Positions 3,577-37,826 of a DNA stretch of 64,000 nt are shown piece by piece (the stretch's first letter is position 1; the number at the start of each line of letters is the position of its first letter). The position numbers were made by a program, and so were the translations under genes. This stretch comes from Gordius sp. MW1. Taxonomy: Eukaryota; Nematomorpha; Gordioida; Gordea; Gordiidae. A model generated the notes under the pieces. It saw only the letters and a program-made list of their open reading frames with translations, did not search any database and was not told where the DNA came from. The stretch covers positions 10,664,001-10,728,000 of the forward strand of contig OZ038526.1 of NCBI GenBank assembly GCA_964036665.1, given 5' to 3'.

Positions 3577-4129
3577 TGATAATTACCCTGTGTCCCCCCT
3601 ACAGGGCCTATGCCTCTACTAATATTTTACAACATTTTGATAGTGATTTCTTTTAAAGTTACATTCGTCCTGGACAGAGCTTGTATGACTTGCGTAACAT
3701 TTATAGTAATTTAATTTAATACTATCAATCTTTTGATAGTTTTTTTTTCTAAAGCTGATAGTAAATAGGGGGCAAGGCTAGTATATTCACGATCAGCACA
3801 TGTGACCTTAAGCTATTATTATAGGCCTTGGTAAACTATATTTTGGAAATTACTCTTATCATCCCTAATATGTCTATGATTGAAAAGGGCAAGTTTCATT
3901 AAAAATTCTAATGCGGCCCTAGAGAGAGGATTACATTTTTATGATTTATTCTAGTTTTTTGATGTTTTTATAGAACTACCTTATTATACACAATGGGGGC
4001 ACGCTCTAAACTCGATGGTAAATGGCGGACTTCCCATTTTCAATTTTATAGCGAGATGTCGGTGTCTATCGTTATAAAATTTAAAAAGAGATAAAAAAAA
4101 TAGAATTTGATCTAAGTCCTTTGTCCCCT
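3577..4129. other. Repeat remnant and unassigned AT-rich sequence
   Basis: 3577-3630 is the continuation of the tRNA-like repeat that the hAT element interrupts. The remainder to about 4130 shows no convincing coding sequence. It could be the 5' non-coding part of the piggyBac relic that follows. Confidence 0.4.
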
Positions 4130-4757
4130 ATGAATAATATTAATATTGTAAATTTATTTATTTTGCAATAATTCTTTAATTTATACGCAAAGCAACACCA
4201 CCATAATTTAAATTTAGCGCACAACGAATTTCACATTTATATTTTTATTGGTTATTTGACCCCCAATAATGTCACGATTTGGGAATTTTAAGCTAATTTG
4301 TGTAACAATATGGTATACAACAGTATGCGAAATCTTTTTTAAGAAATTTTTCCTCTATTAGACAACTAAATTGGTCCAGATAAATTTTCCGAGGTTTGTC
4401 TTCCCGGGATATTTTACAAGAGGTTTAATAACAATTTAAAATATCGCATTTCATGGATGTATCCATGTCCCTTTTATAGAAACCGCACTGCAAAGCAATT
4501 CCAAAGGTGTAAGTGTCTTAAACTTTGTTTTGCGTTCCTTGGAACCCTACCAAGGGGCTAGGTTGTTCGTCTAGCATAATAAAATAATTATACTATACTT
4601 AGTTAAAAGATTGCCATTAGATTATGTCATTTATAATTTATTTTAATAATGACTTAGTTGTAGGATTGCCATTAGATTATGTTTTTATAATTTATATTTT
4701 GATAATAGCTTTACAAGCGCCAAATTAGTAAATTTGACTTAGAAATGATATAGGAGT
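4130..4757 (+). pseudogene. piggyBac-type transposase pseudogene, first part
   Basis: Translation in shifting frames gives NLYAKQHHHNLNL, then HIYIFIGYLTPNNV, MVYNSMRN, DKFSEV, and NRTAKQFQR. These match in order the intact piggyBac transposase ORF at 31925-33469 ([52 protein letters not shown]). A segment encoding LPLDYV(I/F)YNL is duplicated in tandem near 4610-4700. The frame has many stops. The sequence is cut at 4757 by the hAT element at 4758-8055 and resumes at 8056. Confidence 0.8.
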
Positions 4758-5777
4758 CAGAGACTAGATTGCCCGCAACTTTCCTAAATTTTATTTTCGA
4801 GCGGGCCCGGGCGGGCACGAAGATAGGATTCAGGCAATTCGAGCTTAATTAAATTTTTTAGATAATTTTTATTTGATTGTATAAGATAATGCCAAAAGAG
4901 TTAAGAAACTACATTTTGCCATCCGTCCCTAAGATATTTCTATAATTTTTGCCCGCACCACTCTATTTCCATCAAGCCCTATCCCTAGCTACATTCATGG
5001 AAAGGATTGAAATTTAAAATATATACATTTATGTAGCCCTTTACTTGTTGGTAATTTGGTAATTCACACGTGCCGTCTATACATAATACAAAAGGGTCAT
5101 GCCCAAATTGACACAATGCGTTCAAGTGTTAAATTCCAATCTAATATGATTTAATTTTTTTAACAAATCTTTTTTGGTTTAACAAAGTTTCCCAATTCGC
5201 CTTTATTCCCTTATCACTCGTTGCTATCGATAAGCTATTACTTGTTTTTAAAATAATATATTTCTATACCTTTCTTTTTATGATTTAAATTAAAAAAAAT
5301 TTCCATAAATTAAATTTAAATTCTATTGATAATTATTGTTTTTTTTATCAAATGAGTAAGTTCTACGAGCGATTGACAAATCGAACTAATTTTATTCATT
5401 AAGAAGTTTATTTATAGGGTAGGGGCTTAAACGGGTTAAACCAAAAGGGGAGTATAATTTCGTTTATTGTAAGATTATTCATAAAATATGTATACTTTAA
5501 ACTTAATTAAAAAATTACCTAGATATTTTCATGGACATCCTGGCGCGTAGCCATTTTCTCCGTGGAGGAGGGGGGAAATATACAAAAAAATTTTATAACA
5601 TTTTTATTTCAACATCAAAATTATAAATCTGGTATAAAACATAAAGAAAGTCATTATAAAATAATTTCATATTTCTTTTTTCCAGCGTCATCTGGAGTAG
5701 GAGCTAATTCCCCATGAATCGCTAATAAAAGTGTCAATCCATTTAATCTATTCAAACGTCATGAAGTTTTAATTAAA

Positions 5778-7038
5778 ATGTTGTCAGAAATGGAAGAGAA
5801 ACCAAATAAGGAGAAATTGAAACAAGCTGGTTTGATCACGATGTTGCAACAGAAGCTGCAACTTTGCTCATATAGTATTATCGTCATGATTTGAATATCA
5901 CTTTATTTACACTCCTTCTTACTCTATTTGAATACACACTATTCATATTCTTCCTTATTTTATTCACACTCATTATAATTTGAATAGCCCCCAACTATCT
6001 TACGAGTTATTCATATTAACCCCTGAAAAAGGCTATATAAGCCAATATGTAACGATAGATGGGCATCTTGTGGTTGTTTATTAATAAACTTACTTTATTG
6101 GAGGCTGAAACCCCTACATTTGGTGACCCCGCTTTCTCCGGGGGAACTAAATATTTTTTTTAATTCCTCCCCCTACTTATAACTCCAGGTCAACATTTAT
6201 TTTTTTTAATTTCCTCCCCCTAAACACTTCTGTAGTACCAACGTCAAGGTTATAACGCAATTGGATAAATTTGGCACTATATTCGTCACCAAACGACACT
6301 AATGAAAGGATCGAGACACATCAAGCAACCTTTCAACCTCTCCACAATCTCGATCTACACATGTCTTAACGCTGTGAGGAAAGAAAGCCTACCGATGGTT
6401 AAAATGATGAAACCTAGACCCTTACTACACTCCTTTCAATCATCTTCTGCAACGTCACCCGAAGATTGAATTGTCCCCTACTCATCATGGCCTTCACAAA
6501 TAATTCAACACAAATCTTTACGGCTTTTGATTTATGAGCAAGGACTACAATTTCGGCGAAACAATGCATATCTACACCATCACTTACATATTTTTTTGTG
6601 CACTCCATGCAATCAGGAGGAAGGTACTATAGTATTATCGTCATGATTTGAATATCACTTTATTTACACTCCTTCTTACTCTATTTGAATACTCACTATT
6701 CATATTCTTCCTTATTTTATTCACACTCATTATAATTTGAATAGCCCCCAACTATCTTACGAGTTATTCATATTAACCCCTGAAAAAGGCTATATAAGCC
6801 AATATGTAACGATAGATGGGCATCTTGTGGTTGTTTATTAATAAACATACTTTATTGTAGGCTGAAACCCCTACACTCACTTCTCTACGACAATCTGAAT
6901 ATATTATGCAAGCAATTGCAAAAAAAGGACCTAGATCTTCGGCAAGTCAGACAGTTAGCAGAAACTTTAGTAATAGTAGTCGAAAGGCTAAGTTGTATGA
7001 TTTTGAACGTAAGAAACCTCGACATGCAAAGAAAATGA
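5778..7038 (+). pseudogene. Unrecognised 83-codon open frame split by a TRIM
   Basis: An open frame from ATG 5778 runs to 5870, is interrupted by the TRIM at 5871-6875, and resumes in the same frame at 6880, ending at TGA 7036-7038. When the TRIM and one 4-bp duplication are ignored, 31 + 52 codons are continuous. The peptide is helical and charged (KLKQAGLITMLQQKL before the gap, NILCKQLQKKDLDLRQVRQL after it). It faintly resembles helical segments of TTF/DUF4371-type hAT transposases, but that is a guess. It is probably part of the transposase of the element at 5540-7529. Confidence 0.45.
5871..6875 (+). mobile_element. TRIM: terminal-repeat retrotransposon in miniature
   Basis: Two 248-bp direct repeats at 5871-6118 and 6628-6875 differ at only a few positions. 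They begin TATAGTATTATCGTC and end GAAACCCCTACA. A 4-bp direct repeat CTCA flanks the element (5867-5870, 6876-6879). Directly after the 5' repeat is TTTGGTGACCCCG, a primer-binding-site-like sequence seen in many Gypsy-class elements. Directly before the 3' repeat is the purine tract AGGAGGAAGG. Each repeat contains GGCTATATAAGCC (TATA-like) and TTAATAAAC (polyadenylation-like). The 509-bp interior has no protein-coding signal. The nearly identical repeats suggest a young insertion. Confidence 0.9.
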
Positions 7039-8055
7039 ACGGTTTTTGGACAAGAAACAAGTTTTGGCAAATTTCCAAATAATATTTCATCCGAATTCTT
7101 TAATTGTTTTGCCAGAAACGCGAATGAAAATAAATTATAGAAAGATTTCGTCCAAAAATCCCTTAGACGCCCTATCATTATAAAATATTGTAATCTTTGC
7201 CCAACATCACAACTCTTCTTTACCTATTAGCTTTTATATTAGAAATACTATGTCAAAAAATAGATTAAATGGATTGGCCCTTTTTTATAGCATTTTTATT
7301 TCAATTAAAAAAGAAAGTCATTATAAAATAATTTTATATTTTCTTTTTTCCAGCGATAATAACTCAAGAACTTCATCTGGTGTGGGAGCTAATTCAAATA
7401 AATTGCATAGCAATTAATACGTTACTTACTTGTACAGTTACGTTGCACAGCTATAAATTATAAACTTTAAATCTAAAATAATATTTTTTTTATAAAAAAT
7501 CGCCCCCCCCCCCCGCATTTACGCCACTGTGGACATCGGCTGCATTTAATTAATATTTTGCTGTTATATGATTTGTAAAGGTTCTAACATGTTTGTACCT
7601 AAATGCATTAGCAATTAATATATTAAAATATTGTGACCTAGAGCGGTTTTGCCAGTGATAACAATAATTTAAAGAAACTTTGGCCGAATTTTTTAGAAAG
7701 ACCAAATAATACGTTTTTTTGACCTATTAGGATTTAAATTAAAGAACAAAAGTCTCATTTGGAAAAATCATTCGACTTTTAAATAATCTAGGAAATTAGA
7801 TTTTGTCCGGGATAATAAAACATTGCTATATTTGTTTTATTCAATATGCCAGAAATTTAATGCTTATTTTTTAATAGTGGTTGAAAGAAATTGAGACCGC
7901 AAAATTTTGGGCTTAACAAACAAATTTCATATTTCGGGCAGGGCATTTAGGGCAGCTCTAATGTTTCAAGCGGGGGCGGGCTCGGGCGGTCAATGAGGTT
8001 AAAAATGGAACCGAGCCGGGTTCGGGCATAAAATTCTAAACAAATCTCACCTGTG

Positions 8056-8100
8056 ATAGGAGTTACTGGTACAGTGCGTTTATATAGTCTTAGGAGCCCA
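8056..8100 (+). pseudogene. piggyBac transposase pseudogene, continuation after hAT copy A
   Basis: The first codons after the insertion give IGVTGTVR, corresponding to [11 protein letters not shown] of the intact piggyBac ORF. This is the second part of the relic at 4130-4757. Homology fades just before the GGGCGTAGCC motif at 8102. Confidence 0.75.
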
Positions 8101-8101
8101 T

Positions 8102-8610
8102 CATGGGCGTAGCCAGTTTTTGGATTGGGGAGGATCAATGGTATTAATAAGAACAATATATTAATTTAACACAAAACAAAATAAACAAAAAGTTGCCCTC
8201 TCCGGAATTCGAACCAGCAATTAAGAATTTGCCCTCGTCGAGATTCGAACCCACATCAGTAGAGGCATAGGCCTTTGTAGGGGGGGGGCACAGGGACCCA
8301 TATCAGTAGAGGCATAGGCCCTTGTAGGAAGAGGGCAAAGGGTAATTATCATTGTTAATCAATTATAGCAATTGAAAAAAAAATTCGATTCACGCTTTGG
8401 CCAATGGTCATTTTATTCATTGGTCAGCAGCCAGCGGACGGCCAAAAAGCCATATTATCAATGGCATTAACAAGAACAATATATTAATTTAAAAAAAAAT
8501 TGCCCTCTCCGGGATTCGAGCCAGCAATAAGATGCATGTTGAACGGACGGACGGACGGACAACGGACAACGAAAAGCGAGCCCATAAATTGCATAGCAAT
8601 TAATACCATT
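8102..8610 (-). repeat. tRNA-like SINE-type repeat cluster, reverse orientation
   Basis: It begins with CATGGGCGTAGCCAG. It contains reverse-strand B-box-like sequences (CTCTCCGGAATTCGAACC and CTCGTCGAGATTCGAACC) and the GGACGGACGGACGGAC tract. It ends with CCCATAAATTGCATAGCAAT. Components and order match the cluster at 800-1825 on the other strand. Confidence 0.6.
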
Positions 8611-8702: not shown

Positions 8703-9881
8703 GCATATTTCATTGCCTAGTAGCTCTAATGTCTTAACAAAGGAAACTATTAATTATGCAGTTTTTAAAATTTGTCCAAATTATTTTAATAAACACAACC
8801 GACTGTCAAATTGAACTTTAAATAATAGATTTACCAAAATCAGAGACATGGGCCTAGCCAGGTTTTGATTAGGGGGGGGGGCGAAAGGTTCAAAAGTTAA
8901 TTAGGGGGGGGGCAAAACATAAAATGTTTTAATTAAGGCTTTTTGCATGGGAAAAATTTCTTTTTGTCATTTAGGGGGGGGGGGGGGGATTTGATAACAT
9001 TTTCAAATTAACGTATTTTAATGTCTCCCAGTGTAACCTGTAAGATGACACCCCATTATTTCTAGAAATAGGCCAATTTTAAAAATTGTCAGAATTGTTT
9101 GGTAGAACATATGGAGATGTTAAATTATTAAAATTGATTAGTGTATTTATGCAATTTGCCTAAATCCAATGTTATATATGCATCTAAAAGATGGCAAAAC
9201 ATTTTTTACCTTCCTTATATATTTCAGGGTTTTAAAAGAGGCTTTTAATAATGAAAACAATTTGAGAAGAATTAAACAATTAATTACATACTTGAATTAA
9301 GATCATTAAATTGTTTACAAATTTAATTAATTAATCATAACTTTTTATGCCAAAATTTATTTCATAATTTCAAATAATTTTAAAGAAATCAAATAATAAA
9401 GACACACACTACCTCAAGAGGTGGCTACAAACTCTTACTCAATGTTCTAACGGGAAAGAAGATTTTTAGCCACAACCCTTTATTATAATCCACACCCCGT
9501 AATTTGCAAGTGGATAAGAATATTGCCTGCATCAAGATAAATTTTTTGATTCAATCGACTTATAAAAAGCCGACATTCCGTCCATCCTCGAACCATCCGA
9601 TCGTTCTCTAGAAGGTAGGATGCGTCCCAACGAATAATCCCTGGGAGGATGGTTGGTAAGTTCCTAGCTTGGGACTTTACCTGCGTTCCGCACTAGCCGA
9701 TAACAATTTTAACACACTATCTTATGCGGAAGATCGTAAACACTTAAATACCGAGCTATTACTCACTCTAAAATTTTTATTCCAATAGTAGCTTCCTGTT
9801 TTGCCACTTTTGGCAAGAAAGCAATCGCGATTCCTCAAAGCCAAATACCCAGCCAGCTATATTTTATCGGCTTTATTATAT
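8703..9881. other. Intergenic repeat relics
   Basis: 8847-8990 starts CATGGGCCTAGCCAGG followed by G-runs (relic of the CATGGGCGTAGCC family). 9028-9055 contains CCCAGTGTAACCTGTA, the same string found near the ends of the piggyBac elements at 30648-35557, so it is probably a decayed piggyBac end. No gene was seen in 9100-9880. Confidence 0.45.
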
Positions 9882-28360: not shown

Positions 28361-31300
28361 ATGTTTGTATGGGATTGGATTGTAAATACACTAAATAGTT
28401 TGGGTAAGTTTATAGTGTCTATCATTACATATGTAAATAATATATCACTTTCGTTTTATATAATATAGTTTCTTTGTATTACATCTTTATTGTATTTGAT
28501 TCCCCTTTAATTTTTGCATTTAAAATAACCTTTTCTAACTAAGTATTAGTGAAACCTAGTATCAGTATTATACATAATGTTATGATGTAAGCTTTAAAAA
28601 TACTTTTAATTATAAATTAGGGTTGTATAAGAAAAATGGAAAACTCGTTTTTCTTGGCCTAGACAATGCGGGGAAAACCACACTTTTGCATATGCTTAAA
28701 GATGACAAAATGGGACAGCATGTGCCGACATTACATCCTAGTATTAATAATTTCTGTTTTTAAAGCATCAAATTTTACCCTGAGTTAAACTTTTTATATT
28801 TATTCTCTTGTACCTTGTTTATGTTTGTAATTTGTAAAGCTCATGATTTGATACATCCTTTTGATCAGATTATAACACCTAATTTATTACAATTTTTGGT
28901 TATTTTGCTTTATATTTTGGTTATTTTGATAATATAATTATTTTTAAGATCCTATTTAATAACTAATGAATATTACCCAAATTTTAGCATCTGAGGAATT
29001 ATCGCTAGATGGCATAAAATTTACCACATTTGACTTGGGTGGACATCAACAAGGTATAATTTGCATTTAGATTTGAAATATTTGCTGCAACATTTTTTTA
29101 TTGTTTGATTATTCTGTTATTTATTTGTACACAATTTATATTTGTTAAGTTTAAGCCTTGTAAATATGTCAAATTTTTAATATTTTACAACTTTATATAA
29201 AAATCGTTTCAACAGTTGACATTTTGTAAGTTGTTCAATTTTAATTTGTAACTAACTATAAACTCTCTTAGACAATTTTTTTATAATCAATATATTTATT
29301 TACCTAATTTGAGTTTAGCTTTTCAAAAATTACTAAAATATGTGTTATTTGTATTATTTTTAAAAGATTATGTAAGCCTTAAGCTGGCTACATAATAAAA
29401 TTGCAATTGCAAGTAATATCTAAATTACCCCAAAAAATTTGACACTAAAACAACCTTTTATTATTAGTAATTAGCAATCCTTTATATATGAAGTTTGCAT
29501 TGACAAATTGTGGGGTTGGATTGTTGAAATGAGGAGAGGGAAAAAGAATAAAAAATTTATCATTTTTCCACTTTTTATTTTGTTTGTTAATGGGCTTGCA
29601 AACTAAGATATTCTATTTTTTTTCTTGATATATTTATCAATCCTGTCCTAGCATTTCTTAAATTAATTTTTCTTATTTTTAGAAGAATTTATCACAATTT
29701 TTTTATATTAAATGGTGGTTAATTTTTGATAAAGCACCATTGAATCAATTTTATTGATTATAAAATAAATTATTGCACGACTTACACCTTTATTCTATTA
29801 ACTGCTCCTACAGCTCGCCGGGTGTGGAAAGATTATTTTCCAGCCGTAGATGCCGTCGTCTTCCTGGTAGATGTGTGTGATCGACAACGTTTTAACGAAT
29901 CAAAAGCCGAGTTGGAGGTAGGCCCAGTGCTTGCACTCACATGTTTTCTACCTTCACTTATATTTTTCCAACTCATGCTTGTTTTTTACTTATTTTGAAG
30001 TGGAATAATTTAAGGAAGTTTTAAATAATACCAAGTTTTTGTGGTAAATTATCCCAATATATGACACCATTGATAAAATAATGAGAGGAAAAAATGAAGT
30101 CAAATTAAATTACGAATTTATGTTCATTTGTATATCTTACTCATTATTATTTTATCCGTTTAAAAATATGTTTGGCCATTGTATAAAAATAATTTATATT
30201 TATAAAAGTCTCTTATACTCCTTAAGTTTTTTAAAATTATATACATTAATGTATCCTTGGCTTTGTTTAATATGGGTGATGGTTTAGAGCCTGTTGACCG
30301 ACGAACAAATTTCCAATTGTCCCATACTAATCCTTGGTAACAAAATTGATAAACCTGGTGCTGCCAGCGAAGAAGAGGTCCGTTATTGCTTCGGGCTCCA
30401 CGGCCAAACCACCGGCAAAGTAAAACAACTTAAGTCTATTCCATTTCTTGCTCCTATCATACATCAAGTTTTCTGTCTCAAATTTATGGATTTTGCGTTT
30501 TGATAGCCATATATTGAATAGCGGTCAAAGTAGCACAGAAAAAAAAGTAGCACAAATAATTAAAACAATTGGAACTTTTCATATAGTATATAGAAAACAT
30601 TAGTATAATCAAAAAACATAAATTCATAGATAATAATCTTACTTTAACCCGAGAGGTACCCGTGTAACCTGTAGGTGACACCACTTTGAACGCTTATAAT
30701 TTTTAAACTATTGGATGAATTATTAATTTTTAAATTGAATATGAACGAGCACACTTAGGCGAATCAGCTGATATGTTTTATTCCCTTTCCTCTTCCTTCT
30801 TTCATTAATAATGCGGTTTCAAATATCGCTAATTTTGAAATTTCGACTGCTTCTCATATATTCACTAAAAATGGAGACTCAACCATAAGTAATCTTATTT
30901 TAATTTATATCATTATAATCTTGGCGCTTTTACAATTATTTTGATATGAAATTTAATTGTTCTTGGTTAAAAATGGGAAGAATGTTGGTCCAAAGTTTGG
31001 TGTAACCTGTAGGTTACACTGGGCAGACGTCCATACGTAAGCTTATGTAAATGAGTAATGCTACTTTTTTATTTGCGCTAATTTAATTTTTTATAAGTAA
31101 TTTCGTATAAAAATATCCTTATTACAAAGTTAATAGCGCTTTGAGGTAAAAATTATTTAATTAAATTAACCTTTGACCCCATCCACTTGGAAAATCCTGA
31201 AGATTACTTGAAACAATTTCTCTCAAATGCTGTTATTTTGTATGGTGAATTTGAGTAATTTATATGCTTCTCAGCATAACTACAACCTCAATTTAAATGT

Positions 31301-34300
31301 TCATGAATTTCAAGTCTATATCTCAATTCTTTTTTTAACGGGCTACTTGTTTCCTAAAAATATTAAAATGTTTTGGGAGCTCAGAGCTGACTGTTTTAAC
31401 CAAATGGTATCTAATGGAATGCGTAGAATCGCTTCTAAGAAATTACTAAATATTTACATTTGGCCGACAACAGCAAATTGTTAAAGGTTGACACTTTTTT
31501 CAAAGTTCGAGATTATATGGACCTTTTAAATGAAAAGTTCCAAAGCAACTTTAACCCGACAGGTACCACTAACGGTTCGGCCGAACCAATTTCTGTGAAA
31601 ATTTTTTTGGGCCATCTCGATATGCTCTTATTAGATAAACAAAAAAAAATATAGCTTACTTTTGGAAATAAAGGGGTGTCACCTAAAAGTTACACTGGGA
31701 CACATAAATATAGGGAAATTTAACCTGATAGCTACCACTAAGGGTTCGGCCGAACCAATTTTTATGAAATTTTTTTTCGGGGCACCTCGATATGTTCTTA
31801 TTAGATAAACAAACAAAAAAATTGGAAAAATAACTTACTTCCGGAAATAAAGGTGTGTTAACGAGAGATATATAAATAGGCATAATTGAAAATTTTATTA
31901 TATAACGAAATATGCGAAAAACATTTAGTTATTATGAAACGATAACCAACAATGCATGTGAAGTCCAACATTGCAATAAGAACATAATATTCTAGTCGCT
32001 TTTTTACAAACAACGCAGCGCCGTTGAGTACAATGCTGTCGTTGATGATTGTCTACGACGTTTTTAATTTTTGTCAATCTAGGATTCAACGTTCTTTTCG
32101 GAAGTTGGCCGTATTTTTTAAAATAATTTTGGACGATTTCTCGTTTGAAGTTACAAAGTGTCATGTTTCCTTTGTTCATGCAATACAGTTGCCAAGCATT
32201 TTGACACGCTGTATCTAATCCAAACGCAAATAATGGAAAATACCATTTCCTGCCCCTGTAATATATTCTAGTCGCATCGACGTTCTGATCCAAGCGATCA
32301 ACGCCGCCCATGAATTTATTATACATTTTCACCATAAATGGGTATTGAACTGAGATTTTTTTCCTTGATTTTTGAACTGTTGCAATTCTTGCTATATTAG
32401 TTATGGGCGTGACACCATGACAATTAGAAAGCATTGTCACTATGTTATTATCGTTCCAACGTAGTGCCATGATGTTAGGTGTATTCTTCTTTGAAACAAA
32501 CCCTCTTTTCTTTTTTTTCATGGTTTTTATATCAATCAAGGGACATTTGATACGATTTACTCGTACTGTCCCAGTAGCTCCAATATTCATATGTGAAAGA
32601 CATTTCAATAACTTGGAGCTGGTAAAATAATTATCGAAATATATATTATACGGAGCATAATCGGAAGGGAGTTTTTCTACAAGGTCTAATATTACAGCTC
32701 CTCCTAATCCAAAATCCTTTTGCTTGGTCATCAAATATGAGGCTCCTTGGTAAGGCTGCATATTAATTAGGTAGCCGGTTTTAGTGGCCGCACACCACAT
32801 CTTAAAACCAAATCTAAAAGGCTTGCCTTTTATAAATTGCTTTGCAATGTGGTTTCCATAATAAGGGACCATAGATTCATCCATTGCAATGTGGGAGGAA
32901 TTGCAATATTTAAAATTGTTTTTAAACCTATCATTCAAAATATCTAGAAAACCGCGTATCTTGGAAAATTTGTCTGATGGGAACAATTTCGAGTTATCTG
33001 ACAGATGGAGATATTTAGTTATCTCTTGAAACCGATTTCTGCGCATACCATTGGATACCATTTTGTTAAATGAATCGGCCTGAAGTTCCCAAAACATTTT
33101 GATATTTTTTGGGGACAAGTAACCAGTTAAAAAAAGGATTGAAATGTAGATTTTGAATTCGCTAATCGTTAAATTTAGATCATGGTTGTGTTGTCTTGCA
33201 TATAAATTACTCATATTTACAACAAATGTAATAACATCATTTGAGATAAACTGTTCTAAATAGTCTTCAGGATGCTCTAAAACGATCGGGTTGAATATAC
33301 GATTTTCATCAGAGTCCCCACAACCCCGTGGCCTAAATATGACGTCATTATCGGTCCATTTACCGTCTATATCTTGAAAGTTATCGAGCTCATTTGACCT
33401 AACCACCTCGATAAAAGAATTAAGCATAGATCGTGGCAAATGTTGCAGATCAAAGCATTTCATCCCCACTTTCCATATCCGTGTCCCCTTCGTCTTGAGG
33501 CGGAAAAATCAGTACTTCGTCAATATTTTCATTCGGTGTGTCCAATTCCTCTATAATGTCTATCAAAGTTCTAACGCAAAATAATAAAACTAATAATAGT
33601 ACATAATATTTTAAGGCGACTTATGTCTCAAATTCTATTATAAATCACTTTTAACTTTTTAAACAACAGACAGAATCTGAATGAATAACAAAAATTGCAT
33701 GAAATTTATCAATTGAGTTCGACCTCCTTAATGGGATGTGTAAATTTATAATTGTTTTTCGCATATTTCCTACCAAAAATTTAGCAAAAATTTGAAAATG
33801 AAAATCTACCTAGACTAATTTTTATTTCCTATAGGTGCAAAATTTGCGATATTCTTGACTTTTCTAGCCCCACCCCTTATAAACCATTAAGGTTTACCAG
33901 AAAAAGACAAAAATATATGTAAAAGATCCATACTTTTAAAATGAAAACACTTAAAAAGATATGCTCGGCAAACTGGCTCTGCCCAGTGTAACCTTTAGGT
34001 TATGTTCAACTTTAAGGCAAAATTTAAAGGCTTTAAAGTACTCAAATAAATTCAAAATTACTATCAAAATGTTGGAAAAATTATAGAGATTATAAATATG
34101 CAAATTAAATTGCAAAAACTTACAGTTGAGTATCCATAAATATTGAATTTAAGAAGGGAGGTAGAAAATGCAGATTTTGCGATTTTTGAATGAGAATAAT
34201 TCACGAATGAAGGAAGAAGGAGTTATGAAATTATATCAGCTGATTTATCGCATTTCGTTCTTTCAAATTTAATTTAAAAAATGCTTTTATCTTCAGTAGT

Positions 34301-37300
34301 TTTTGAGAAATGTGGTTTTAAAGTTGAGTCACCTAAAAGTTACACTGGTACCTGTCGGGTTAAACATCGTAGCTCTTCTCACATATCGGTTCCTTATTTC
34401 GAGCACCACAATGCAAAACAATTTATAAAAGGCAAGTCTTTTCGTTTCGGCCATAATATGTGGTGTGCTGCAACAAAAAATGGCTACCTTGTCACATTTC
34501 AACCTTACCAGGGGGCTAAATTTTCCGTAACTCGACAAAACGAAATAAGTTTAGGAGGAGCGGTCATATTAGATTTAGTAAATCAACTACCACCAGAAAT
34601 TTTGATAATTTTTTTACGAGCCACAATTTAATGATATGTCTTTCGATGAATATTGGGGGCACAGGAACGGTGCGGGTCAATCGTTTAAAATGCCCGATTA
34701 TCGATGTAAATGAAGAGGGTTTCTATCAAAAAACACTTGTTTGATGGCTGTCCGATATGATAATAATATTGGCACAATGTTGTCAAATCGCCATGGGGTC
34801 AAGCCTATCACCTCTATTGGAAGAATCACGAAAGCGAAAAAAATAGAAACAAATTGTAATTCAGTATCCTCATATGATCAAAATGTCTAATTGTTTTTGG
34901 GGCGGTGTCGACCGCTTTGACTAGAATATGGATGCAACTAGAATATCATTTCGCGGCAGAAAAATGGTATTTTTCTATATATTTGGGTTGGAGACTGCAT
35001 GTTAAAATGCATGGCATCTATATTGCTACGATTGGGGAAAATTACAATATGTAATTTAAAAAGAGAGATAGTGCAAAATTATTTTAAAAAATACGGACAA
35101 CCGCGTAAACGGACTTTAAACCCTAAATTAACTAATTTTAAGGATAATATAACTATACAACAAAAGGATTCATGTACTCAGAGGCGTTGTGTCGTCTGTT
35201 ATAAAGCTACTAGAATTTATGTGCGTATTGTAAAGTAGGCCTTCTCATACATTGTTGACCAATATTTCATAATAATTAACATATTTTGTACTCATTAATT
35301 TGTTAGAATACATTTTTATGTATTTTATAAAAAAAACTCGTCATTGTTGTATACGTTATTCTGAAATTTAATAATCTCTTTACACGTGATTATATTTGTG
35401 CTGCCCAGTGTAACCTGTAGGTGACACCCCTTTTTTCTCAAAGTAAATAATTTTTTCGAAATTTTTCAATTGTTTAGTTTTATTTATCATGTATGAAAGC
35501 CCAGAAAAAAAATTTCATAAAATTTTTTCGGCCGAACTGGTTCTAATACCTGTCAAGTTAATGCTTATAATTTTATAATATCAAAAATAAATTTGTTTTA
35601 ATTATTTGTGCTACTTTTTTCTGTGCTACTATGACCGATTCCCCATATATTGGGATATCCCATAAAGATGTTTATTTTTTTATCTTGCGACAATGTAATT
35701 TTCGATCTATATATTGCGACTACATTTTTTTTATCCGGTGCCTCTTATGGCTACCAGAGACCAAATTGCCCGGCCCGCTGCCCGAACCTACCCGGCCCGG
35801 GCAGGTGGGCAATTCGGGCTTAATGAAGTTTTTTAGATAGTGTAATTTTATTTTATTTGATTGTATGTGAAATGCTAAAAGAGTTAAGAAACTTGATTTC
35901 GCCATCCATCCCCAAGTTATTTCTATAATTTTTGCCTGAACCACTCTATTTCCATCAAGTCCCCCCCCCCCTTGCTACGTTCATGAAAAGGATTGAAATA
36001 TCTATATTTATGAAGCCCTTTCATTGTTCGTATTTCACATGTGCCGTCTATACATAATACAAAAGCGTCATGCCCAAATTGACATAATGCATGCAAATGT
36101 TAAATTTCATTCGAATATCATTTAATTTTTTCAACAAATCTTATTTGATTTATCAAAGCTTCCCCAATTCGCCTTTAGTATTCCCTTATCAATCATTGCT
36201 ATCGCTAAGCTATTGCTTATTTTTAAAATAATAAATTTCTATATCTTTCTTTTTTTGCTTTGAATTTAAAATTTTTTTATAAATTACATTTATATTCTAT
36301 TGATAAATGATTGTTTTTTTATCAAAAAAGTAAGTTCTAAGAGCACAGATTGACTAATTGAACTAATTTTATTCATTAAGAAGTTTATTTACAGGGTAGG
36401 GGCTTAAACGGGTTAACCGAAGGTGAGTATTGTTTATTGTAAGATTATTTATAAAATATGTATACTTTAAACTTAATTAAAAAATGGCTAAATTCATGGA
36501 CATCGGCTGCATTTAATTAATATTTTGGGTATCATTTCAAAATACCACCGTCCAAAATACCACTGAATCTCACGTTTTCGTCAATCAAATTACTCATTGC
36601 GCAAGCGCATAATTTCCATTTTTATAATGCGCATGCGTATGCATTTAACAGACCAATCAGATAGCTGCGCATTTTAATAATGCGCATGCGTACGCATTTA
36701 ACAATTATTGCTGCACTATAAAACTTTAAGGGACAGGGTTAAGGTTCAGGGTAGTGTTGTAGGTCAGCGTTTTAGGTTAGGATTAGATGCACATCAAATT
36801 CCCTCCCCATTTGAGATTTAATTTTCGTGATATTCAGTGTGGCATTTTGGACTGTGGCATTTTGAACCCAATTCAATATTTTGCTGTTATATGATTTGTA
36901 AACATTTAACATGTTTGTACCTAAATGCATTAGCAATTCATATATTAAAATATTTTGACCTAGAGCGGTTTTGCCAGTGATAACAATAATTTTAAGAAAC
37001 TCTAGCCAAATATTATGGAAAGACCAAATACTACATTTTTTTGACCTATTAGGATTAAAATTATAGATCAAAAGTTTCATTTAGAAAAATCATTTGACTT
37101 TTAAATTATTTAGGAAATTAGATTTTGTCCGAGATAATAAAATTTTGCCAAATTTGTTTTATTCAATATGCCATTAATTTAATGCTCATTTTTTAATAGT
37201 GGTTGAAAGTATCTGAGATCGCAAAATTTTGGGCTTAACAGGCAAATTTAAAATTTCAGGCCGGGCATTTCGGGCAGCTCTAATGTTTCGGGCGGGCCCG

Positions 37301-37826
37301 GGCCGACACCTAGAAGGGTTCGGGCGGGCAATTAGGTTAAAAAATTGAACCGGGCTGGGTTCGGGCATAAAATTCCTAACAAATCTGACCTCTAGGCTAC
37401 CTCGATATTATTTAACTGGTATCTAATCTTACTGCTTTTGCAATATGACCAAAATAATGCATAAACTTAGATGTGAATTATTTTGATTTATTTATAAATA
37501 TAGTTTGGTCAATTTGTGTAATATTCCAAATGCATGTTTGTTATCGGTATCGGTTAAAAAACACTTGCGCTTTCTGAATACCAAGTTATTATAGTCACAA
37601 ATCAGTTCTTAGGTACCGTCGACAAAACATTATAATACTGATCATTCGTGTAGCCTATTGCAGATAAATCAGGTTTATTACATACTTAACGCATGCATCC
37701 TTTACGTAGGGTAAAGTTAGTCGGACCGATTTACCCGGCCGTCCGTTGGAGCTCTTCATGTGTAGTGTACTCAAGAGGCAGGGCTATGGCGAGGGCTTTC
37801 GTTGGCTTGCTCAATACATACAATAA
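28361..37826 (+). CDS. SAR1: SAR1 small GTPase (COPII coat initiator), six exons
   Basis: Exons: 28361-28403, 28621-28740, 28988-29053, 29814-29917, 30288-30419 and 37710-37826; all introns are GT-AG and the joined frame is 193 codons plus stop, the normal family length. SAR1 is the GTPase that, once activated by Sec12 at the ER, inserts its N-terminal amphipathic helix into the membrane and recruits Sec23/24. Visible motifs: [11 protein letters not shown] membrane helix (1-11), P-loop GLDNAGKT (27-34), switch I HVPTLHPT (48-55), switch II DLGGH with the catalytic-type His 74, NKID (129-132) and CSV (173-175). The protein ends YIQ where most homologues end YID. Intron 5 (30420-37709) is 7.3 kb and full of transposons; the others are 217-760 bp. 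The ATG at 28361 fits the conserved start. Confidence 0.97.
31172..31550 (+). pseudogene. piggyBac transposase pseudogene, N-terminal half
   Basis: Begins [19 protein letters not shown], shifts frame near 31225-31260, then continues [39 protein letters not shown] and MVSNGMRR, all collinear with the intact ORF at 31925-33469. It ends at the TTAA where the younger piggyBac inserted. The remaining half is at 34364-35250. Confidence 0.9.
31555..34359 (-). mobile_element. Younger piggyBac element with long transposase ORF
   Basis: TTAA duplications lie at 31551-31554 and 34360-34363. Terminal inverted repeats read CCCGACAGGTACCA at the left and TGGTACCTGTCGGG at the right. Removing the element and one TTAA rejoins the older transposase's codons (before: KFQSNF; after: KHRSSSHI), matching [12 protein letters not shown] of the intact ORF. 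The left terminal segment is present twice: 31551-31715 and again from TTAACCTGATAGC at 31720, each followed by GGTTCGGCCGAACCAATTT. The second copy may be an old nested end or a duplication. Confidence 0.9.
31925..33469 (-). CDS. piggyBac transposase, catalytic domain and C-terminal zinc domain open
   Basis: A 514-codon frame without internal stop, oriented opposite to SAR1. It shows the piggyBac catalytic triad contexts: [11 protein letters not shown] (first Asp), [11 protein letters not shown] (second) and [11 protein letters not shown] (third), a DDD transposase. The C-terminus, [17 protein letters not shown] then [14 protein letters not shown], is the cysteine-rich domain that binds the element's ends. 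The frame as tracked starts at GTG; the first in-frame ATG is at 33463. Directly upstream, another frame (about 33580-33463) encodes an acidic stretch ([19 protein letters not shown]) typical of piggyBac N-termini and preceded by an AG that could be a splice acceptor. The intact catalytic frame therefore seems separated from its N-terminus by a frameshift or unrecognised intron. Activity is uncertain. Confidence 0.93.
   Translation of the reverse strand: MGMKCFDLQHLPRSMLNSFIEVVRSNELDNFQDIDGKWTDNDVIFRPRGCGDSDENRIFNPIVLEHPEDYLEQFISNDVITFVVNMSNLYARQHNHDLNLTISEFKIYISILFLTGYLSPKNIKMFWELQADSFNKMVSNGMRRNRFQEITKYLHLSDNSKLFPSDKFSKIRGFLDILNDRFKNNFKYCNSSHIAMDESMVPYYGNHIAKQFIKGKPFRFGFKMWCAATKTGYLINMQPYQGASYLMTKQKDFGLGGAVILDLVEKLPSDYAPYNIYFDNYFTSSKLLKCLSHMNIGATGTVRVNRIKCPLIDIKTMKKKKRGFVSKKNTPNIMALRWNDNNIVTMLSNCHGVTPITNIARIATVQKSRKKISVQYPFMVKMYNKFMGGVDRLDQNVDATRIYYRGRKWYFPLFAFGLDTACQNAWQLYCMNKGNMTLCNFKREIVQNYFKKYGQLPKRTLNPRLTKIKNVVDNHQRQHCTQRRCVVCKKATRILCSYCNVGLHMHCWLSFHNN
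34364..35250 (+). pseudogene. piggyBac transposase pseudogene, C-terminal half
   Basis: Continuation of 31172-31550. Open to 34631 with [31 protein letters not shown] and [14 protein letters not shown]. Then broken frames give [23 protein letters not shown] and [12 protein letters not shown], and finally [20 protein letters not shown] and [15 protein letters not shown]. The segment carrying the first catalytic aspartate (AMDE in the intact copy) is deleted at the start, and the cysteine domain is truncated. Confidence 0.9.
35755..37394. mobile_element. hAT-type element, copy B, in SAR1 intron 5
   Basis: Same family as 4758-8055: it starts CAGAGACCAAATTGCCCGG, ends AAATCTGACCTCTA, and has GGGC-rich blocks inside both ends. 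Flanking GGCTAC repeats (35749-35754, 37395-37400) are consistent with a decayed 8-bp duplication. It aligns along most of its length with the outer parts of copy A. It lacks the 1.99-kb insertion of copy A and carries instead the 347-bp MITE at 36528-36874. No coding capacity was seen. Confidence 0.85.
36528..36874. mobile_element. 347-bp MITE inside hAT copy B
   Basis: Inverted ends: TTCAAAATACCACCGTCC near the left and GGACTGTGGCATTTTGAA near the right. An exact 9-bp direct repeat AATATTTTG lies at 36519-36527 and 36875-36883. Copy A has the unoccupied site TTAATTAATATTTTGCTG near 7547-7564. The interior has GCGCATGCGTACGCATTT-type blocks. Confidence 0.88.

Follow-up and report, generated by a model that had tools for sequence, protein, structure and literature searches.

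REANNOTATE, as set out in the available part of its report, which has TEnest in its reference list, derives the order of transposon insertions from nesting and the age of LTR elements from LTR divergence, both automatically (PMC2672092). Among small LTR elements, animal TRIMs have been described as PbTRIM in ants (PMC3532108), ta-TRIM in cestodes (PMC4558846) and biv-TRIM in bivalves (PMC6934838), and the accessible text of the last of these reports mentions tandem TRIM forms for cestodes, bivalves and plants.

We report four mobile elements nested in one another within the window, i.e. the whole stretch of 64,000 nucleotides that was analysed (C8:10664001-10728000). A piggyBac relic (layer 0) is interrupted by the hAT-like element A (layer 1); into A a second hAT-like element (layer 2) has inserted, which in turn carries a TRIM (layer 3). 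Our reading follows the same logic of nesting order and LTR age as REANNOTATE; however, whereas REANNOTATE is reported to make no check of duplications, each layer was here checked by exact target duplications and by empty sites in sibling copies (PMC2672092). The locus is an ordinary stepwise transposon nest of known element kinds for which the evidence is unusually complete. A literature search found, by title, no paper on a hAT and TRIM nest of such kind. Nests like this are ordinary in animal genomes and the general view of transposons is unchanged; the present one is a clean teaching example, its nesting order being matched by three independent divergence values. It also orders four element families of one genome by their past activity, and its innermost layer adds a probable animal TRIM family.

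Boundaries, duplications and order of the layers

The genome containing the window (211,818,799 bases, 211.8 Mb, 12 contigs) was searched for further copies of the elements, and the sibling copies used below are the best-scoring ones and no random sample. The features are as follows (positions in the window).

4177-4757, + strand: layer 0, piggyBac relic, left portion (matched to the ORF at 31925-33508 with tblastn and blastn)
4750-4757, + strand: left ATAGGAGT duplication of layer 1, 8 bp, identical to 8056-8063
4758-8055, + strand: layer 1, hAT-like nonautonomous element A (genome matches and shared ends)
5532-5539, + strand: left TGGACATC duplication of layer 2, 8 bp, identical to 7530-7537; site unoccupied in 26/29 siblings
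5540-7529, + strand: layer 2, second hAT-like nonautonomous element (genome matches, family ends)
5867-5870, + strand: left CTCA duplication of layer 3, 4 bp, identical to 6876-6879; site unoccupied in 26/29 siblings
5871-6118, + strand: left LTR of the TRIM (248 bp), differing from the right LTR at 3 positions (98.8% identity)
6119-6627, + strand: internal part of the TRIM, with the primer-site-like TGGTGACCCCG close to its left end and the purine tract AGGAGGAAGG close to the right one
6628-6875, + strand: right LTR of the TRIM, 248 bp, pairing with the left LTR
6876-6879, + strand: right CTCA duplication of layer 3, identical to 5867-5870
7530-7537, + strand: right TGGACATC duplication of layer 2, identical to 5532-5539
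8056-8063, + strand: right ATAGGAGT duplication of layer 1, identical to 4750-4757
8064-8101, + strand: layer 0 resumes, short relic piece (alignment through the join)
8102-8577, no strand assigned: further insert in the relic, with exact 8-bp GAGCCCAT duplication at 8094-8101 and 8578-8585
8774-9080, + strand: later relic pieces at 8774-8840 and 9005-9080 (blastn)
35755-37394, + strand: copy B of the layer-1 family, layer-2 site unoccupied, own insert at 36527-36874 (outer limits from the initial annotation)

The nest proposed in the initial annotation was borne out, its boundaries and three duplications being exact to the base, and the insertion order is indeed readable, from these duplications, from empty sites in many siblings and from independent divergence values. 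Since sibling copies in the same genome have empty insertion points, the order of arrival is clear, and the nest is almost certainly the product of four stepwise insertions, in the order relic, hAT-like A, second hAT-like element and TRIM. A piggyBac element inserted first and then decayed, after which a nonautonomous hAT-like element (layer 1) landed in the piggyBac transposase sequence and duplicated 8 bp of it. Layer 1 was later the target of another, different hAT-like element that is likewise nonautonomous (layer 2) and duplicated a further 8 bp, and the TRIM integrated last, into layer 2, with a 4-bp duplication. We infer the enzymes that moved each element; for the TRIM, reverse transcriptase and integrase would have to be supplied by an autonomous LTR element.

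The ORF at 31925-33508 (minus strand) encodes a piggyBac transposase (PF13843, 265 bits; cut-off 22.4). Membership of the relic follows from this ORF and its tblastn match to 4178-4730: PF13843 is common to the piggyBac superfamily, from which the nested relic differs in being broken by stops, frameshifts and inserts. The main blastn matches to the ORF lie at 4177-4500 and 4675-4727, the latter running into the join, and further pieces of the relic are located at 3614-3649, 8774-8840 and 9005-9080. The relic's own termini, with a TTAA target and CCC...GGG ends, were not found by blastn, which matched only subterminal-type pieces (3614-3649 and 9005-9080). When layer 1 is removed, the piggyBac flanks close against the ORF across 4757/8064 (90 columns, 75.6%, E 1.1e-5); a second run through the join gave 101 columns at 74.3% (E 4.7e-11), and the left flank alone 49 columns (E 0.002). 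For layer 1, this alignment through the join upholds the earlier statement that removal rejoins coding sequence. The relic is split by layer 1 as proposed but is more interrupted than had been claimed, with pieces reaching to about 9080 and an insert at 8102-8577 that had been missed. This insert (476 bp) starts with CATGGGCGTAGCCAG, its other end is no mirror of the start, and it contains direct repeats and a 47-bp tandem pair. Another insert in the relic, from about 8847, is possible.

The two hAT-like layers and their siblings

Element A is 1,300 bp long without its insert. With its left 774 bp as query, the best 40 of 1,100 genome candidates were scored, all being matches (77-100% identity). 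The aligned siblings have the ends CAGAGACCAGATTG and GACCTCTG in common, and exact 8-bp duplications could be read by eye in at least four of 16 (L021, L022, L028 and L031). The TGGACATC site, which in A holds layer 2, is unoccupied in 26 of the 29 other layer-1 copies (best-scoring; median 4 and maximum 8 mismatches of 38), with L024, L037 and L038 falling below the threshold, while letter-shuffled loci had at least 15 mismatches to the 38-letter string. In blastn alignments of 22/29 siblings, the overlap between the halves is exactly 8 bp.

Copy B (L026), which is counted among the 29, had been predicted to carry this site in unoccupied form. The alignment of A with B closes on both sides of layer 2, with 4833-5539 corresponding to 35808-36504 (83.6%), 7530-7560 to 36497-36527 (100%) and 7548-8052 to 36870-37391 (86.6%); therefore the 8-bp TGGACATC site is single in B, and removal of layer 2 restores what B has. 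Copy B carries an insert of its own, 348 bp long (36527-36874) and with the duplication AATATTTT, which was absent from the initial annotation. This insert and an unrelated element in another layer-1 sibling (L033, approximately 1.07 kb) occupy the same 8-bp target AATATTTT. An 18-mer common to 25548 and 36869 was dropped since the match did not extend.

Layer 2 is 981 bp long without its insert, and its two halves were used as queries, the best 40 of 655 and the best 40 of 861 genome candidates being scored. Its siblings have the common ends CAGGCGCGTAGCCAGG and TACGCCACTG, and inspection by eye showed 8-bp duplications to be exact in at least four of the 12 aligned (L058, L062, L063 and L067). 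As for layer 1, the inner site was unoccupied in 26 of 29: the CTCA site is empty in that number of other layer-2 copies (best-scoring; median 2 mismatches of 34, eight identical), where L057 (8 mismatches) and L064 (6) passed narrowly and L044, L050 and L054 fell below the threshold. Letter-shuffled loci had at least 14 mismatches to the 34-letter string, and the halves overlap by exactly 4 bp in 23/29 siblings (blastn).

Both layers have the 8-bp target duplication and the short terminal inverted repeats beginning with CAG (imperfect in the window copies) that are known from nonautonomous hAT elements. Their assignment to the hAT superfamily is based on ends and duplication length, because no transposase is tied to either family, and they are accordingly referred to as hAT-like. 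Specifically, in the flanks read at five of 150 listed PF05699 places the ends of neither family were found, the best match showing 4 mismatches of 15. Genome-wide, hAT transposase ends (PF05699) are very numerous, with 3,413 candidates; all 150 that were scored were over the cut-off.

When the TRIM is removed from layer 2, a frame of approximately 100 aa is open across the join, as is a second frame. The majority reading of the layer-2 frame has no Pfam family over the cut-off, so that the earlier claim of rejoined coding sequence is unproven for layer 3. Layer-2 siblings have a common frame of approximately 114 aa, stop-free in some copies, its Pfam leads are Not3 (18.2 bits, cut-off 25.8) and DUF745 (11.1, cut-off 33.3), both sub-threshold, and acceptor-like pyrimidine tracts ending in CAG stand twice before related stretches. 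These features would fit a Pack-type, gene-capturing hAT family that spreads part of a coiled-coil gene of the host together with acceptor-like sites, the TRIM having disrupted the captured frame. No donor gene is prominent among the genome matches listed (150 scored of 625 candidates), however, and a leftover of layer 2's own lost transposase would explain the frame equally well. With no Pfam family over the cut-off and no donor locus among those matches, the captured-gene reading was set aside as improbable.

The TRIM

The TRIM-type LTR element at 5871-6875 is, with its 1,005 bp, at the edge of the definition of less than about 1,000 bp in the available part of the bivalve report, and its direct terminal repeats of 248 bp each lie within the range of about 100-250 bp given there (PMC6934838). 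All stop-to-stop frames inside it are shorter than 100 aa, as expected of the noncoding internal part of a TRIM. The primer site beside the left LTR (TGGTGACCCCG) starts two bases past it, and the purine tract AGGAGGAAGG stands before the right LTR. The target duplication, CTCA in the window copy, has a length within the 4-6 bp expected of a TRIM. Moreover, duplications were present at all five other TRIM copies read, of which two have both LTRs and three are single LTRs; four of the duplications are 4 bp long and the fifth is 5 bp.

For the primer site, the complementary 15-mer occurs 67 times in the genome, the reversed control 0 times. At the four loci that were inspected, CCA comes next, as would be expected of a primer site. 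ARAGORN predicted no tRNA gene for the primer site in L070-L073 or L075-L077. A longer 3' stretch of tRNA-like sequence with CCA (approximately 40-45 nt) is present in L075-L077, resembling what we take to be the 3' half of tRNA-Trp, and the flank shown is common to L075 and L076. Another copy of the TRIM, L008, has a longer form of the primer site, which matches what is presumably the 3' end of tRNA-Trp. The primer site would differ in this respect from those of the ant and cestode TRIMs, for which the accessible parts of the reports give a leucine tRNA (PMC3532108, PMC4558846).

In other respects layer 3 resembles the animal TRIMs as far as the available text of their reports describes them, being a small noncoding LTR element with solo LTRs (PMC3532108, PMC4558846, PMC6934838), and its 4-bp duplications are like those of the TRIMs of ants and Echinococcus (PMC3532108, PMC4558846). 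Its LTRs run from TATAG to TACA, and the likeness to the ant, cestode and bivalve elements is one of description only. A tandem array with three TRIM LTRs and two internal parts lies at C6:9552621-9554362, a form like the cestode and bivalve tandems in the portions of the reports at hand (PMC4558846, PMC6934838). More distant relatives of the internal part, at 69-83% and with no matching TRIM LTR listed, lie for example at C8:1152414-1152901 and C3:22657403-22657809, pointing to a broader group of small LTR elements with a common internal part.

Retrozymes, which are small self-cleaving elements, have a size, LTRs and a 4-bp duplication like those of layer 3, so that on these features the innermost element could be one of them instead. 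No Rfam family reached its gathering score within the window, however, and the six Rfam matches in 5800-6950 were all far below theirs, with no hammerhead among them. The search thus disfavours a self-cleaving RNA, and we consider a retrozyme highly improbable and refer to layer 3 as a TRIM.

Divergence, place of assembly and further piggyBac copies

Divergence falls inward, in the same ranking as the nesting. The window copy has a mean K2P distance to its siblings of 0.124 in layer 1 (17 copies) and of 0.066 in layer 2 (12 copies), values that lean young because the copies are among the best-scoring; the distance between the two TRIM LTRs is 0.012 (3 of 248 positions). The copies compared are those with readable ends, which for layer 1 are copy B and 16 other loci (17/29) and for layer 2 are 12/29.

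Alternatively, the insertions might have happened at another locus, and the whole nest or its inner portion might then have been transferred to the present one in a single step. Composites may be able to move, as an identical piggyBac-in-piggyBac composite is found at two places of this genome. For the present nest, however, none of the 29 layer-1 loci has layer-2 or TRIM sequence within 1.5 kb, and none of the 29 layer-2 loci has layer-1 or TRIM sequence within this distance (best-scoring copies); moreover, piggyBac relic sequence closes on both sides of A. As neither these 58 sibling loci nor the six TRIM loci (L003-L008) gave any sign of movement as a unit, we regard such a transfer as very improbable, and stepwise building of the nest at this locus is most likely.

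The piggyBac composite consists of a 2,471-bp copy inverted at TTAA inside an identical copy (0 mismatches; L069, 155-5100), and the same composite is present on another contig (L074, from about 573) with 99.88% identity over 4,831 bp. At the one end seen, the flank of L074 differs from that of L069, and the composite may therefore have been transferred as a whole, or two insertions may have struck one and the same of 33 TTAA sites.

Within the window, the piggyBac copy at 31555-34359 is flanked by TTAA on either side, has CCCGACAGG ends and contains a frame of 527 aa. It is itself nested, in an older piggyBac relic of the opposite orientation (31176-31554 and 34388-35287). Judged by their copies, two piggyBac families look recently active. 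The protein of the window copy has 16 other stop-free copies in the genome, 97-98% identical over nearly the whole length, and a second family (59% identity) is present at 14 places with the equal score of 699.4.
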